Assembly: GCA_002050275.1 (NCBI GenBank)
Contig: MWTB01000021.1
Span: 1 to 64,000, forward strand
From: Anaerolineae bacterium UTCFX1
GTDB lineage: Bacteria > Chloroflexota > Anaerolineae > Anaerolineales > Villigracilaceae
Direction of reading: 5' to 3'
DNA length: 64,000 nt
This document shows positions 49,375 through 60,859 of this stretch, in pieces. Below the pieces are notes generated by a model. The model was not told the origin of the DNA. It ran no database searches and saw nothing but the letters and a program-made list of their open reading frames with translations. The position numbers and the translations under genes are program-made. Each line of letters begins with the position of its first letter. Position 1 is the stretch's first letter.

Positions 49375-51828
49375 ATGAATCGGATCGTTCAAGGCAACCT
49401 GCTTAAAGTTGCAGGGGCATTTATATTCCTTCAGTCGGCGATTCTCACTCTGGCTCCAGCGGCGCTAGCGCGTTCTTTCGATGCGCCTTTAAGATGGACG
49501 CACTGGATTGCCGCGTTAATTCTAGGATTTCTCATTATCCTCATCCATCGCGAAATTGCCGAACGTCTCCCCGACGCCGATCCATTCCTCTTCCCTACGG
49601 CAGTTCTTCTGAGCGGCTGGGGGCTTTTAACTATCTGGCGGCTTGACGCGCACCTCGGCGCCCGCCAGGCGCTCTGGTTAGGCGTTAGCCTTATTGGATT
49701 GTTCTTCGGTCTACAAGCGCCCGATCCGCTCAACTCTCTTCGCCGATACAAATACACGATTCTGAGCGGCGGCTTCCTACTCGTTATACTCACTTTGTTA
49801 TTCGGCGCGAATCCCATGGGCTTCGGTCCGCGGCTATGGCTGAAATGTTGCGGTGTGTACTTCCAACCGTCCGAGCCGCTAAAACTCTTGTTGATCATTT
49901 TTCTCGCGGCGTATCTAGCCGACCAGCTGGCAATTCGCGCCGGCATCGCTTCGCTTACCTTACCCACCGCCGTCATCAGCGGATTTGGGATTCTCTTGCT
50001 TCTCTTCCAGCGCGATTTGGGAACCGCCTCCATATTCATCGCGCTATTCACGATCATGATCTATCTCGCCAGCGGTCGCCGTCGGACATTGCTATTCAAC
50101 GCCGCGGTGATCGTCTGTCTTGCCGTCGGCGGTTACTATTTCATCGAGATCGTTCATACGCGCTTCGATTCATGGATTAATCCCTGGGAAGATTCCGCCG
50201 GCAGGTCGTATCAGATCATTCAAGGATTGCTCGCAGTCGCTAACGGAGGCATCGAAGGCAGAGGGCTCGGTCTCGGCAGCCCCAATGAAGGCAGAGGGCT
50301 CGGTCTCGGCAGCCCCAATGTCGTACCGGTGGCTGTCTCCGATTTCATCTATACCGCGATCGCAGAAGAGAGCGGGCTTTTAGGAACGCTCGGGTTGCTC
50401 GCCCTCGTCGGCTTACTTCTAATTCGCAGTTTGCGCGCCGCGTTGCTTGCGCCGCATCTTTTTCGCCGTCTATGCGCGGCAGGGCTGGCGTCTTATTTGG
50501 GAATCCAAACGTTGCTGATCGCCGGCGGAAACTTGCGTCTCGTCCCGTTAACCGGTGTTACGCTTCCGTTCGTCTCATACGGCGGATCATCGCTGCTGAC
50601 CTCGTTTGCGGCGCTCTTGTTATTACTGCGCATCAGCAATCCCCTCGACGAAGAACCCGCGCCGCTCGCCAACCCGCGCCCCTATTACACGCTCGGAGCC
50701 GCGCTCCTACTCGGAGTTTTCTCCGTCGCGCTTGCCAATGGATGGTGGGCGGTCGTGCGCGGACCCAGCCTACTCACCCGCTTGGACAATCCGCGCCGCA
50801 TCGTCGAAGATCGCTTCGTGCCGCGCGGCAAACTGGTTGACCGAAACAACTCGATCATTGATGCAAGCTCAGGCAAGATTGGGGCGCTCGAACGACTGTA
50901 TGCATATCCCGACCTTGCTCCCGTCAGCGGTTACAACCACGCCAAGTATGGGCAGGCGGGGCTGGAAGCGACATTAGACGCTTACTTGCGAGGTCTACAG
51001 GGAACGTCTGCCGCAACGATCTGGTGGGATCATCTGCTGTACGGCATGGCGCCGCCCGGCTTGGATGTTCGTCTCACAATTGACCTCACGTTGCAATCTC
51101 GCGCCGACGAGCTTCTGCGCGGATATTCCGGCGCAGCGCTCGTCTTAAACGCAACGACCGGCGAGATCTTAACGATGGCGTCTCATCCAACATTCGATCC
51201 CAACCAGTTAGCTGAAACCGGCGACGCGCTGCAAAGCGACCCTAAGCGCCCGCTCATCAATCGCGCTACGCAAGGTCTGTATCCTACCGGCAGCCTCTTA
51301 GATCCGTTTGCGCAAGCTGTAACGGGAAAACAAAGCTTAACAGACGCAGAGCGCGAATCGGTCTACGAAGCGATCGGCTTTCAGCGGACGCCGCAAATTC
51401 AACTGCCCACTGCTCAATCGTTTTCAGCGGTCGGGCTGGAACATTTCCATGTAACGCCCCTGCAAGCCGCGCTTGCCGCCGCCGCGCTCAGCGCGCATGG
51501 GATCGCCCCAGCGCCGAACATTGCGTCGGCGGTCAATACGCCTGCCGACGGTTGGGTGGCGCTCCCTGTGTTAGGCGCGTCATTTGAAGCGCTGAACGCA
51601 CCCATCGCGGATGAAACAGCGCAGCGTCTCATCCGCAGCGGCGACCGTTACTGGTCGCATCGCGGGCGCGCCGTAGAAGGCGATTCTGCTGTCGCATGGT
51701 TCATTGCCGGCGCTCCTCCCAATTGGGGCGGCGTCCCCATCGTCGTCGTTGTTTTAATCGAAGAAGATAACCCGCAAGCGGCGGAGCGCATCGGCTCGCA
51801 ATTGATCGCAGGCGCAATGAATCCGTAG
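49375..51828 (+). CDS. RodA/FtsW-type glycosyltransferase fused to a degenerate PbpA-like domain
   Basis: An 817-residue fusion. Residues 1-430 are a SEDS polymerase with about ten membrane helices (FGPRLWLKCCGVYFQPSEPLK, split in motif terms at W and PSE; VSDFIYTAIAEESG; LPFVSYGGSSLLT). Residues 460-817 follow the order of actinobacterial PbpA (a membrane helix, RGKLVDRN, YGQAGLEATLDAYL, GAALVLNATTGEILTMASHP). At the expected SxxK active site the sequence is S640-L-L-D643, and no KTG triad is seen near the end, so transpeptidase activity is probably lost. The domain may only activate the SEDS part. A 33-base tandem duplication lies in the loop before VSDF. Confidence 0.9.
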   Translation: MNRIVQGNLLKVAGAFIFLQSAILTLAPAALARSFDAPLRWTHWIAALILGFLIILIHREIAERLPDADPFLFPTAVLLSGWGLLTIWRLDAHLGARQALWLGVSLIGLFFGLQAPDPLNSLRRYKYTILSGGFLLVILTLLFGANPMGFGPRLWLKCCGVYFQPSEPLKLLLIIFLAAYLADQLAIRAGIASLTLPTAVISGFGILLLLFQRDLGTASIFIALFTIMIYLASGRRRTLLFNAAVIVCLAVGGYYFIEIVHTRFDSWINPWEDSAGRSYQIIQGLLAVANGGIEGRGLGLGSPNEGRGLGLGSPNVVPVAVSDFIYTAIAEESGLLGTLGLLALVGLLLIRSLRAALLAPHLFRRLCAAGLASYLGIQTLLIAGGNLRLVPLTGVTLPFVSYGGSSLLTSFAALLLLLRISNPLDEEPAPLANPRPYYTLGAALLLGVFSVALANGWWAVVRGPSLLTRLDNPRRIVEDRFVPRGKLVDRNNSIIDASSGKIGALERLYAYPDLAPVSGYNHAKYGQAGLEATLDAYLRGLQGTSAATIWWDHLLYGMAPPGLDVRLTIDLTLQSRADELLRGYSGAALVLNATTGEILTMASHPTFDPNQLAETGDALQSDPKRPLINRATQGLYPTGSLLDPFAQAVTGKQSLTDAERESVYEAIGFQRTPQIQLPTAQSFSAVGLEHFHVTPLQAALAAAALSAHGIAPAPNIASAVNTPADGWVALPVLGASFEALNAPIADETAQRLIRSGDRYWSHRGRAVEGDSAVAWFIAGAPPNWGGVPIVVVVLIEEDNPQAAERIGSQLIAGAMNP
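50254..50319 (+). repeat. Exact 33-bp tandem duplication in the RodA part
   Basis: Bases 50254-50286 are repeated without change at 50287-50319, giving two copies of EGRGLGLGSPN just before the conserved extracytoplasmic VSDFIYTAIAEE segment. The frame is kept. Confidence 0.95.
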
Positions 51829-56349: not shown

Positions 56350-56551
56350 TAGCCCTATTTGAAGCAATCAACCGCGATAATTTCCCCACAAGATCATTAC
56401 AATCAGCTGACAAATTCGCCTTTTTTAATCCTTGACTAATCTTCGTCTTAATTATTATAATCGCAGACAAGGATGCTCTAAGGGACACGCCGCCTCAACG
56501 CCACTACTCTCCCCAAAGAATATCTCACAATTTATTTTCCAGGAGAATCGC

Positions 56552-58549
56552 ATGAAGCTATCGATTGTTTTCAAGGCATTTACGGCTTTAATGATCGCTA
56601 TGCTGGTTTTTGGCGCATTGCCAACCAGCCCAGCGCGCGCCGCCACGTTATGCGTAGGAGGCGGCGGCTGTTACCCAACCATCCAAGCCGCTATTGACGC
56701 CGCTGCCGCTGGCGATACGATTAACGTCAATGCGGGGACCTATAACGAAGATATTACGATCAACAAATCGCTAACGCTCAGCGGCGCTGGTTCCGCTACG
56801 ACGATCATCGTCGGTCAAATTGGCGGACTCTCCTCCGCAACAGTTAGAATCACGGCAAGCAACGTCATAATCCAGGGGTTCACGATTACCCGGGCTGGAA
56901 ATAATTCGGTGGATTGGAATAACGCGAGCCTCAACTCGGCGGGAATTGCCATTCAAGGCACGGCAATTACGAGCGTGTTCATTCAAAGCAACTTAATTAC
57001 CGGCAACCGCACAGGCATTGACATTAATCATAGTTCGGGGCACATAATTATAGGAAACGACATTAGCGATAATCATACCGGTATGATTTTCCGCAACACG
57101 ACCAATAACTTGTCCGTCACATCCAACAAAATCATGAACAATCGGACGCTAGGCGTTCTTTTCTTGGACGCCAGCGGCGGCTCAAATTCGCCAGTGCAAT
57201 CCGCTATTGGTTCGTGGTTTCGCGGCAACAATATTAGCGGCAATTGGTACGGTCAAGTAGCAGATCGTCAAACTGGCGGCGCTTTGCCGGCGCCCAACAC
57301 GACAAACACGAAAGACTTTCAGGGCAATTGGTGGGGCGCCCCCGCTCCAACTGTTGCGATTCAAAATAGCGTCGAGCCTCCTTATGCTTCCCTTCTGCCG
57401 GTCGCCTATGGCGGATCGGCAGTTCCGCCATCGCCTCCTCAACCCGATATCCTTGGCTTAGCCGCAGAAAACATCCTCTACTCCTCGTCGCCCTGCGACT
57501 ACTATAGTTGCCCGTGGATTACGCCTTTATTAATTACCACGATCGGCAGTTCTCCAGCGGACGGCGACATACTCAACGCAGGCATTTCGCAACTGGCGGT
57601 TGCTTTCAATAAAGACGCCTTAGACGATGGTTCCGCGCAAGCCGCCAATAACGTCGTCAACTACATGCTGTATGAATATGGAGGCGACTCCACATCTGAT
57701 ACAATCAACTGTATGAGCGGCATTGGCGGAGACGACGTCAATATCGCCATCAATAGCGCGACCTACGATCCCGTAACGTATACCGTCACAATTAATGTGA
57801 ACGGCGGCATCCCCTTGTCTGCTGGAAGATATCGCCTGTTGGTCTGCGGAACGACTTCCATTGAAGATAACGATAACAACGAATTGAACTGGGGCGCGAT
57901 TGACAGCGCGGTTAACTTCACGGTATTGGCGACGCCTACGCCCACTGCATCCCCTACGCCCACTGCATCCCCTACGCCCACTGCGTCCCCTACGCCCGCT
58001 GGCTCTCTCACGCCCGGGTCTTCTAGCCTCAATGCTTTCGCATTGCCTGCTACCGGTTTCGCCACAGGGCGAACAACTATGCTTTCATCGCCAAGCATCG
58101 CCTACAATGCGCTCGGCGACCTATGGCTTGAAATTCCACGCTTGGGCGTGAAAATGCCTATCGTCGGCGTTCCGCAAACCGTCAACGGAAATTGGGATGT
58201 CTCGTGGTTGGGCAACAACGCCGGCTGGCTGCAAGGAACCGCTTTCCCCACTTGGAGCGGCAATTCGGCGATCACCGGTCACGTTTGGGGCGCGGACAAT
58301 AAAGCCGGACCGTTCTTATCCATTAACACGCTCTGGTACGGCGACCGCATCAGCGTTCACGCTTGGGGACAGGAATACGTCTACGAAGTCCGTTCTGTAT
58401 TGCAAGTAGAGCCTAATGCGACAACCTCCGCCTTCCAGCACAAAGACGTCCCCTGGTTGACGCTCATCACCTGCCGCTCTTACGATGAAGCGTCCGACGC
58501 CTATCGTTACCGCGTGTTAGTGCAAGCAGTGCAAGTGACTATTAAATAG
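56552..58549 (+). CDS. Secreted beta-helix protein with internal LPATG motif and C-terminal sortase domain
   Basis: A 665-residue secreted protein. A signal peptide (residues 1-31, ending ARA) is followed by a right-handed beta-helix region (about 40-290, IQAAIDAAAAGDTINVNAGT). A Big-like beta domain spans about 350-460. A TPTASP linker is made of 18-base tandem repeats. An LPATG motif follows at residues 498-502, then a class E/F-like sortase domain with His577 (TGHVWG), Cys641 (LTLITC) and a catalytic Arg near 652-654 (YRYRVLVQA). The ATG at 56552 follows AGGAGA. The enzyme and a sorting signal in one chain suggest self-attachment or autoprocessing. Confidence 0.88.
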   Translation: MKLSIVFKAFTALMIAMLVFGALPTSPARAATLCVGGGGCYPTIQAAIDAAAAGDTINVNAGTYNEDITINKSLTLSGAGSATTIIVGQIGGLSSATVRITASNVIIQGFTITRAGNNSVDWNNASLNSAGIAIQGTAITSVFIQSNLITGNRTGIDINHSSGHIIIGNDISDNHTGMIFRNTTNNLSVTSNKIMNNRTLGVLFLDASGGSNSPVQSAIGSWFRGNNISGNWYGQVADRQTGGALPAPNTTNTKDFQGNWWGAPAPTVAIQNSVEPPYASLLPVAYGGSAVPPSPPQPDILGLAAENILYSSSPCDYYSCPWITPLLITTIGSSPADGDILNAGISQLAVAFNKDALDDGSAQAANNVVNYMLYEYGGDSTSDTINCMSGIGGDDVNIAINSATYDPVTYTVTINVNGGIPLSAGRYRLLVCGTTSIEDNDNNELNWGAIDSAVNFTVLATPTPTASPTPTASPTPTASPTPAGSLTPGSSSLNAFALPATGFATGRTTMLSSPSIAYNALGDLWLEIPRLGVKMPIVGVPQTVNGNWDVSWLGNNAGWLQGTAFPTWSGNSAITGHVWGADNKAGPFLSINTLWYGDRISVHAWGQEYVYEVRSVLQVEPNATTSAFQHKDVPWLTLITCRSYDEASDAYRYRVLVQAVQVTIK

Positions 58550-58690: not shown

Positions 58691-60859
58691 TTACGGCGTA
58701 TAGTATTCGACAATCAACGCCGGTCGATTTCCCGCAGTTGGGGCATTGCCGCTATAAAAACGGACAAAATCTGCGTTGCCATTATCGTTATCGCCAAGGG
58801 CAAATCTCAAGCGGAATTGCGTCCGCCCTGTTTTATTGATGTAAGCGAGAATATCGCTCGTCCACACGCGCACGTGCCAGCCATTCACTCGCGTAGACGG
58901 AAGCGCGCCGACCGCATGCTTCGTTGCCGCGGCTTGAAAATCAATTAGTTCAAGACCGGGATCGTTGCTAAACGCGCCGTTTCGCACATCCACGGTCAAC
59001 CCGCCGAGCGAAGTAAACGCATTCGTTCCAATCGTACGGAAGAATCGAATCTTGAGCGTGACCTTTGTAATAACCGCGTCATCAGGAAGGGACGAAGTAT
59101 TAAAAGACAAAAAGCCGCGATACTGGCGATCCTCCGCATCATCTCCCACATTAAACGCCCCTGCCGAGCGATTAAGCGTTCCGCCCGTAGAGCTATTCTC
59201 CGTCGCTTCCAACGTCCAGCCGTCTTCCGCTCCAATCGAACGGAAAACGCTTCTACCCGGGACAGCCGAGGAGGCGCTAAAATACGCGCCCGGCGGACTG
59301 ATCGTAGTGCGAGTTGTGCCAGCGGCATCCGCATCCACCGCATTTGAAAGAATTCCCAGCGGAACGGAAGGCAAAATAGGCGCGTCGCTCCATGTAAAAT
59401 CAGGAATGGGATACGTCGCCGCAGTAAACACGTTTCCGCCTGTCACAGGACGGAAGTCTCCGCCGGCAGGGTTGACTAGTTGCGGCTGGATGACGTTAAT
59501 GGCGTTGTCGGCGCGCAATTGCGTTTCATTGCAAGTTGGGTTCGCGGGACGACATCCTTCACTCGAGTCCTCAATTCCCAGAGGATGACCCGCCGGCCCG
59601 TTCCAAATGATGTTGCCGCGAATTCTTAAATTCACGTCCGTTTTTGCAGGATTAGGAATATTTGAACCGCCCGCAGGCGCGCGCGGTCCATAGATAGCAA
59701 AATGCTGCCACGCGCTCTGGAAGCCGGCCGGATTATAAACAATATTATTGTAGATATACACATTGCGATTAGGGATAGGCTCTTCGTCTCCGATGCTATT
59801 TGTACCCCATCCTCCCGCAAGCCGATTCGCATTACATTGCGCAGCGTCGCCGTCGCAAGAACGCCCGCCAAAAACAACCTCGACCACATGACTGCGGCTG
59901 CCCACACGATAGCAAGTGTTGTAAGCCATCAAGATGTTATAGCCGCCGTTGACGCCGAAACACGCTCCTTCGACGTCGTGGATAACATTATTGACAAATT
60001 TGACGTCATACGTTTCGTAGTGCAACCAGGGCGAGGACATGTATTCAAACCCTGTGCCTTGCCCAGCGGTGAATCCGCCTGTGCCGCAGTTGTAAATAAC
60101 GTTCCCTTCCACGCGGATATAGGCTGAGCCGCCCTTCACATAGGCGCACCAATCGTCGCCGCCGTGGATTTTATTTTTCACAATATGACCATATTGCACA
60201 GATACGAAGTCAATTACATTTTCATACGATCCCGAAAGGTCGCTATTTTCGATATAGACGTATTGCGACTGGTTAATTTTAACAGTTTCATGTGCATCTC
60301 CATTCCCTCTGAAATCTACGTTGCGCAACAACAAATGATCGCATAGCTCGCAATGCAATACGTCGCCGTTGACATTGATGGTCAACGACTCGATATAGAG
60401 ATAGCGCGCGTCGTAAATATTCAAATCGCCGAGCAAAACAATCTGCCCGCGCGCCCCATTGCCGCGTATCCAAATAGGAGCATCATATGCGCCATAGCGC
60501 GACTCCAAGTAAACTGGAATAGAAGATTCGGGATAGCTGCCCGGCTGGAGATTGATGCGCACGCCTTCGCTCAACACAACGTTCATCGGAACGTCGTTCC
60601 ATGCGGCGCTGATGGTGCGAAAGGCGGCAGCGGGCGAAGCGCCATCATTGGCGTCGTTTCCATTAACAGGATCTACCCAGATATCGCGCAGAAGAGGGCT
60701 TCCAGTCGCATATAACTCATGAGCAGGCGCGCGAGCCTCGATGAATTCTCCGGCTTGGGCTGGCGCAGCCTGCGCAGAATTTGTGCGGGAAGTAAAGACG
60801 GAAAGAACAAGAATTCCAATAGAAAAGGTTGCTTTAATTAAGCGTGTCAGGGTCGGCAT
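58691..60859 (-). CDS. Secreted right-handed beta-helix protein with C-terminal DNRLRE-type domain
   Basis: A 722-residue protein. The signal peptide covers residues 1-31 (ending AQAAPA). A parallel beta-helix region of pectate-lyase-like coils spans about 60-480 (WVDPVNGNDANDGASPAAAF at its start, then many YIEN/VRGN-type rungs). A DNRLRE-like beta-sandwich spans about 560-722 (RGFLSFNTSSLPDDAVITKV ... FYSGNAPTAGNRPALIVEYY). It may bind or cleave extracellular polysaccharide; no catalytic residues can be named with confidence. GGAGGAATTCTT precedes its ATG. The 285 bases upstream (60860-61144) hold the msrB terminator and no gene. Confidence 0.85.
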   Translation of the reverse strand: MPTLTRLIKATFSIGILVLSVFTSRTNSAQAAPAQAGEFIEARAPAHELYATGSPLLRDIWVDPVNGNDANDGASPAAAFRTISAAWNDVPMNVVLSEGVRINLQPGSYPESSIPVYLESRYGAYDAPIWIRGNGARGQIVLLGDLNIYDARYLYIESLTINVNGDVLHCELCDHLLLRNVDFRGNGDAHETVKINQSQYVYIENSDLSGSYENVIDFVSVQYGHIVKNKIHGGDDWCAYVKGGSAYIRVEGNVIYNCGTGGFTAGQGTGFEYMSSPWLHYETYDVKFVNNVIHDVEGACFGVNGGYNILMAYNTCYRVGSRSHVVEVVFGGRSCDGDAAQCNANRLAGGWGTNSIGDEEPIPNRNVYIYNNIVYNPAGFQSAWQHFAIYGPRAPAGGSNIPNPAKTDVNLRIRGNIIWNGPAGHPLGIEDSSEGCRPANPTCNETQLRADNAINVIQPQLVNPAGGDFRPVTGGNVFTAATYPIPDFTWSDAPILPSVPLGILSNAVDADAAGTTRTTISPPGAYFSASSAVPGRSVFRSIGAEDGWTLEATENSSTGGTLNRSAGAFNVGDDAEDRQYRGFLSFNTSSLPDDAVITKVTLKIRFFRTIGTNAFTSLGGLTVDVRNGAFSNDPGLELIDFQAAATKHAVGALPSTRVNGWHVRVWTSDILAYINKTGRTQFRLRFALGDNDNGNADFVRFYSGNAPTAGNRPALIVEYYTP

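Follow-up and report, generated by a model that had tools for sequence, protein, structure and literature searches.

A fusion of an LPxTG sorting motif to a C-terminal sortase, within one secreted chain, is an order-wide architecture in Anaerolineales (Chloroflexota). Comparison of these proteins makes it rather probable that the substrate of the C-terminal sortase is the LPxTG within its own chain, or that within a second molecule of the protein; the fused sortase would then take the place that the membrane tail has in ordinary sorting signals. Sortases are usually separate membrane enzymes, each serving many substrates; here every substrate would bring its own enzyme, probably for a single use. 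The sortase family is already known, and it is the fusion of substrate and enzyme within one chain that appears to be a new variation: in the openly accessible part of the literature, which was searched, no description of a substrate–sortase fusion was found. If true, the proposal would amount to a second way of building the bacterial surface, account for the display of giant surface proteins in a little-studied phylum, and supply numerous natural, pre-joined substrate–sortase pairs useful for specificity studies and protein ligation. The analysis concerns a gene in a stretch of 64,000 nucleotides, here called the window, for which a preliminary description had suggested that a single protein might sort itself in cis. 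The comparative evidence (conservation, joint decay, copy number and independent fusions) fits self-sorting, but the view of a single protein has to give way to that of an architecture shared by the order.

The sortase-fusion gene of the window

The features of the gene are collected in Table 1. Translation of the open reading frame bears out the placement of LPATG just before the sortase domain, and the preliminary description was equally right about the beta-helix region ahead of it. The domain is complete, matching PF04203 at positions 1–124 of 125 (76 bits, cut-off 26.6; E 2e-21), and by this profile together with its His, Cys and Arg it can be placed in the sortase superfamily. The catalytic Arg, previously located only to residues 652–654, is R654, because Arg occupies position 652 in just 18 of the 47 homologues. 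The signal peptide is the only strongly hydrophobic segment of the protein (mean Kyte–Doolittle value 2.3, and at most 1.2 in every 19-residue window after residue 40), and the chain stops 4 residues past the sortase domain; the protein is therefore without a C-terminal membrane anchor, as had been noticed before. Residues ~330–455 gave zero matches in a Pfam search and look Ig-like.

Table 1. Positions, in the 64,000-nucleotide window, of the sortase-fusion gene and its parts
Feature	Positions	Strand	Description and basis
Open reading frame	56552..58549	+	665 aa; secreted protein with beta-helix, LPATG and sortase at the C-terminus; open frame
AGGAG, likely ribosome-binding site	56541..56545	+	6 bases 5' of ATG, read directly
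Signal peptide, residues 1–30 (PARA|A)	56552..56641	+	sequence and hydropathy; cleavage site inferred
Beta-helix (NosD-like), residues 51–210	56702..57181	+	PF05048 E 3e-7, PF13229 E 1e-5
Residues ~330–455	57539..57916	+	common to fused proteins L037, L132, L134
P/T-rich linker, residues 456–497	57917..58042	+	resembles wall-spanning stretch; variable among homologues
LPATG, residues 498–502	58043..58057	+	start of module homology
Short linker, residues 503–525	58058..58126	+	F503, Y518 conserved; length near-constant among homologues
Sortase domain PF04203, residues 526–661	58127..58534	+	profile match
Catalytic His577	58280..58282	+	47/47 homologues
Catalytic Cys641	58472..58474	+	47/47 homologues
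Catalytic Arg654	58511..58513	+	46/47 homologues; sole exception also without motif

The protein shares with conventional (class A type) LPXTG sorting a signal peptide, surface domains, a P/T-rich stretch, the LPxTG itself and a His-Cys-Arg transpeptidase. Unlike a conventional LPXTG protein, however, it has no membrane helix and basic tail, and the sortase follows the motif in the same chain. Thus, in terms of the conventional anchor family PF00746, LPATG is present and no hydrophobic helix or basic tail stands behind it; PF00746 gave zero matches above its cut-off in the source genome. Nor does the sortase fall into one of the established classes. Class F (NF033748) is the best NCBIfam class by E-value, yet its 46 bits are far under the cut-off of 166, and the models for class C (42 bits, cut-off 160), class E (32, cut-off 160) and class D (28, cut-off 165) score lower still, so the window sortase is left without class assignment. 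The model TIGR01076 is just at its cut-off (39.5 against 39.35).

An orthologue in a metagenome-derived genome of Anaerolineales (L035) is 89% identical over the whole protein and 97% identical in the module. The dN/dS ratio between the two genes is 0.26 overall, 0.33 for residues 1–455 and 0.089 for residues 498–665, which makes the LPATG–sortase module the most constrained part of the gene. A single odd gene or an assembly artefact was ruled out by this purifying selection and by the presence of the module in 312 of 400 sampled genomes of the order.

Two neighbouring reading frames may be mentioned. The adjacent gene at 58691–60859 (- strand), convergent with the sortase-fusion gene, encodes another secreted beta-helix protein, which has neither sortase nor LPxTG. 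The open reading frame at 49375–51828 (+ strand) contains a tandem duplication of 11 residues (EGRGLGLGSPN) and appears to unite a membrane protein of the FtsW/RodA type with a part resembling a transpeptidase.

Motif and catalytic triad across Anaerolineales

Of the four sortases in the source genome, one stands alone (~330 aa); the others form the C-termini of three long secreted proteins, each with an LPxTG just upstream. Sortases were present in 61 of 61 genomes in a search for relatives, most of which have the standalone type together with one or more long ones; standalone enzymes are present in essentially every genome, and ones with intact triads can be found across the order. Among the matches to the window module listed from the order, nearly all start at query residues 3–5, at LPATG. 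Several hundred modules exist, and Levilinea saccharolytica has one (L037). When 251 genomes sampled from the phylum were searched, the matches from outside the order were weak (best E 3e-17) and mostly started past the motif; relatives were absent from the viral contigs.

The motif is conserved as strictly as the catalytic residues. Among 47 non-redundant fused modules, picked without regard to the motif, Pro is kept in 46, Thr in 46, Gly in 47 and the following Phe in 47, as against 47 for H577, 47 for C641 and 46 for R654; the His and Cys named in the preliminary description are invariant. The residue x of LPxTG is free (Ala 19, Asp 8, Glu 4, Arg 4, and others), and the linker upstream of the motif is nearly random. 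In a larger set of 157 fused modules, from which near-duplicates, standalone enzymes and truncated contigs had been taken out, [LIVMA]PxTG is present in 151, including L184 with its longer linker. Chance occurrence was ruled out, since the same pattern appears in 1.3% of shuffled 60-residue upstream stretches of fused proteins; among 34 standalone membrane sortases (VLPSGH type), LPxTG was found in none. The spacing is also held nearly constant: motif and domain are mostly 25–30 residues apart (26–29 in 140 of 155 modules), the distance from Pro to His is 77–79 residues in most modules, and that from Pro to Cys has a median of 142.

Homologues that keep the sortase and lose the motif had been named beforehand as evidence against self-sorting. 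Six were found among the 157 modules, and three of these also lack the catalytic Arg. In L073, L279 and L280 the motif is replaced by GG[LF]GF, with Pro, Thr and Gly all gone, and the Arg has become Trp; similarly, the lone module of the 47 without Pro and Thr is the lone one without the catalytic Arg. L281, a syntenic relative of these three, reads ILDTG, having lost the Pro and kept the Arg, which suggests that in this lineage the motif decayed before the Arg. A perfect co-loss of motif and Arg was set aside on account of L281, and their joint loss is confined to the one lineage. The remaining exceptions, L216 (LPAAG) and L247 (WPKTG), like L281, retain the triad despite an altered motif, which counts against self-sorting. 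In a further locus, L282 (G437 C2 594500–599500), a fused gene is split within the sortase domain, its halves lie more than 3 kb apart and its motif reads NPLTG; the break looks like an insertion.

Some genomes carry the fusion in large numbers. G581 has 47 PF04203 matches, and G501 and G619, of the same genus, have 28 and 26; most of these matches lie at the C-terminal end of long open reading frames. Forty fused sortases whose upstream sequence is complete were sampled from G581: LPxTG stands in its normal position in 39, and the remaining one reads LPAAG. The median pairwise identity of the fused domains is 47%. Figures of 100% for the motif, obtained from a set selected by that motif, were discarded as circular. 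The persistence of dozens of intact fused enzymes in G581 argues against one housekeeping enzyme doing all the sorting. Genomes with numerous fused sortases also encode short forms (L173, L180, L186 and L189) of 190–199 aa, consisting of a signal peptide and then the sortase, with neither LPxTG nor a membrane helix; these may act in trans as free forms.

Such copy numbers bear on the proposal that a standalone membrane sortase cuts the fused LPxTG, the C-terminal domain having some other role or serving as a retention device. Standalone sortases with intact triads are at hand throughout the order, and a search of the source genome for separate LPxTG substrates, as had been suggested, yielded an ordinary one, L258 (G000 C17 near 34122, - strand), a small conventional LPNTGF protein with a helix and an RRLR tail. 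This search covered families and the pattern LP[A/D/E/K/N]TG only, so the count of one is a minimum. With such a protein in the genome, some sortase probably does respond to LPxTG, and the protein together with the standalone enzyme would allow processing in trans. Yet this proposal leaves unexplained why His, Cys and Arg of the fused domain are conserved as well as the motif, why motif and Arg were lost in the same lineage, and why one genome should keep dozens of active-looking fused sortases. We regard it as quite unlikely.

Independent fusions in Chloroflexota family f41

A comparable layout is seen in family f41 of Chloroflexota. In L307 a sortase gene comes immediately after a conventional substrate (LPNTGG, helix, RPQRR, stop) and shares its frame. 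In L121 and L308 a substrate with its entire sorting signal, both motif and membrane tail, is joined to the sortase in one open reading frame. L304, found in one genome, keeps LPNTG and the sortase, and the helix between them is gone, which accounts for its Pro-to-His distance of 84 residues and reproduces the window layout. As its cargo is that of L121 (62% identity over 349 positions), L304 appears from its sequence to have shed the membrane tail while both motif and enzyme were kept. The family thus offers a graded series, from adjacent genes (L307) through fusion with the tail (L121 and L308) to fusion without it (L304). L116, L118, L300 and L301 make up a second fusion group of f41, and LPNTS, a helix and an Arg cluster could be read in L116, L118 and L300.

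The fusion domains of f41 resemble class F, also the best class by E-value for the window domain; L116 scores 109 bits with the class F model. In the sortase tree the f41 fusions lie within the class F-like clade of f41, in two places, far from the fusions of Anaerolineales. These separate positions indicate that the layout arose at least twice, and on the tree and the sequences together it probably arose three times in Chloroflexota.

Possible processing of the fused chain

In the window protein, self-sorting would begin after export with an attack of C641 on the Thr-Gly bond of LPATG, forming a thioester in which the surface part, ending in LPAT, is bound to the sortase. The surface part would then pass to an amine, which might belong to a wall peptide or to a different surface protein, and one turnover would leave the sortase as a free fragment with GFAT... 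at its start; hydrolysis, with release, or transfer between chains would be alternative outcomes. Cleavage, the single turnover and the acceptor are what we infer for this protein. Against self-sorting, the protein lacks an anchor in the membrane that would keep it near lipid II. For the broader proposition, namely an order-wide natural family in which each protein bears a sortase that, in a single use, would cut its own chain and transfer it, taking the place of the membrane tail, the family having evolved at least twice in Chloroflexota by substrate–sortase fusion, we put the chances at about even.

Laboratory fusions of the form target-LPETG-linker-SrtA cleave themselves and are used for self-cleaving purification. 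Such engineered target-LPXTG-linker-sortase proteins have the same order of parts as the window protein; they differ in being man-made and in using a class A sortase. As an analogy only, Hedgehog autoprocessing (mentioned in PMC9303669) also relies on a single-use C-terminal domain that forms a thioester and passes the N-terminal part to a nucleophile, whereas its fold and acceptor are unrelated to those of the window sortase.

Class C sortases, including pilin-joining enzymes, are among the best PDB matches to the window domain. In the pilin sortases SrtC1 and SrtC2 of GBS, a segment that contains a Pro and precedes the barrel, about as far along the chain from His and Cys as the motif is here, forms a lid: its DP-aromatic motif superposes, in the active site, on the LPAT peptide from the complex with SrtA, and the lid Pro stands 71–72 residues before the catalytic His and 133–134 before the Cys (PMC3493515, PMC3166054). 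The Pro-to-His distance of the fused modules is close to this, which would mean that a tethered segment can reach the active site in a related fold. An AlphaFold model built from only four sequences (pLDDT 53) was too poor to place LPATG. The likeness to class C, in chain position and in PDB matches, equally invites the reading that LPATG is a pseudo-substrate lid that blocks its own active site, the enzyme working in trans once the lid opens and the adhesin being a targeting module. The class C lid, however, is DP(F/Y/W), not LPxTG, and belongs to membrane proteins without adhesin domains; in 151 of the 157 modules the lid position is occupied by LPxTG, with the scissile Thr-Gly conserved and the residue beside Pro free. 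If dozens of sortases with differing cargo in one genome were lidded, an equal number of substrates would have to exist, and the LPNTG retained in L304 is a former sorting signal. We therefore find a lid unlikely, and continue to favour action of the sortase on its own chain or on another copy of it.

Among the cargo domains of five fused proteins are DUF7933, DUF11, Big_9, cadherin-like, SdrD_B, Listeria–Bacteroides repeat and beta-helix domains. Long arrays of DUF11, DUF7933, Big_9 and SdrD_B-type domains make up many of the cargoes, adjacent fused copies exist (for example G023 C22), and the closest PDB sequences include pilin-joining enzymes; all this would suit a scheme in which the fused proteins cut one another and link head to tail, or to other partners, into covalent surface fibres rather than being anchored to the wall. 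The cargo of the window protein, however, is a small beta-helix, and the short, near-constant spacing between motif and domain suits intramolecular reach better, so that such fibres seem very unlikely. In one LPNTG–sortase protein, at L174:1495-3402 (- strand), a peptidase S41 domain forms the cargo.
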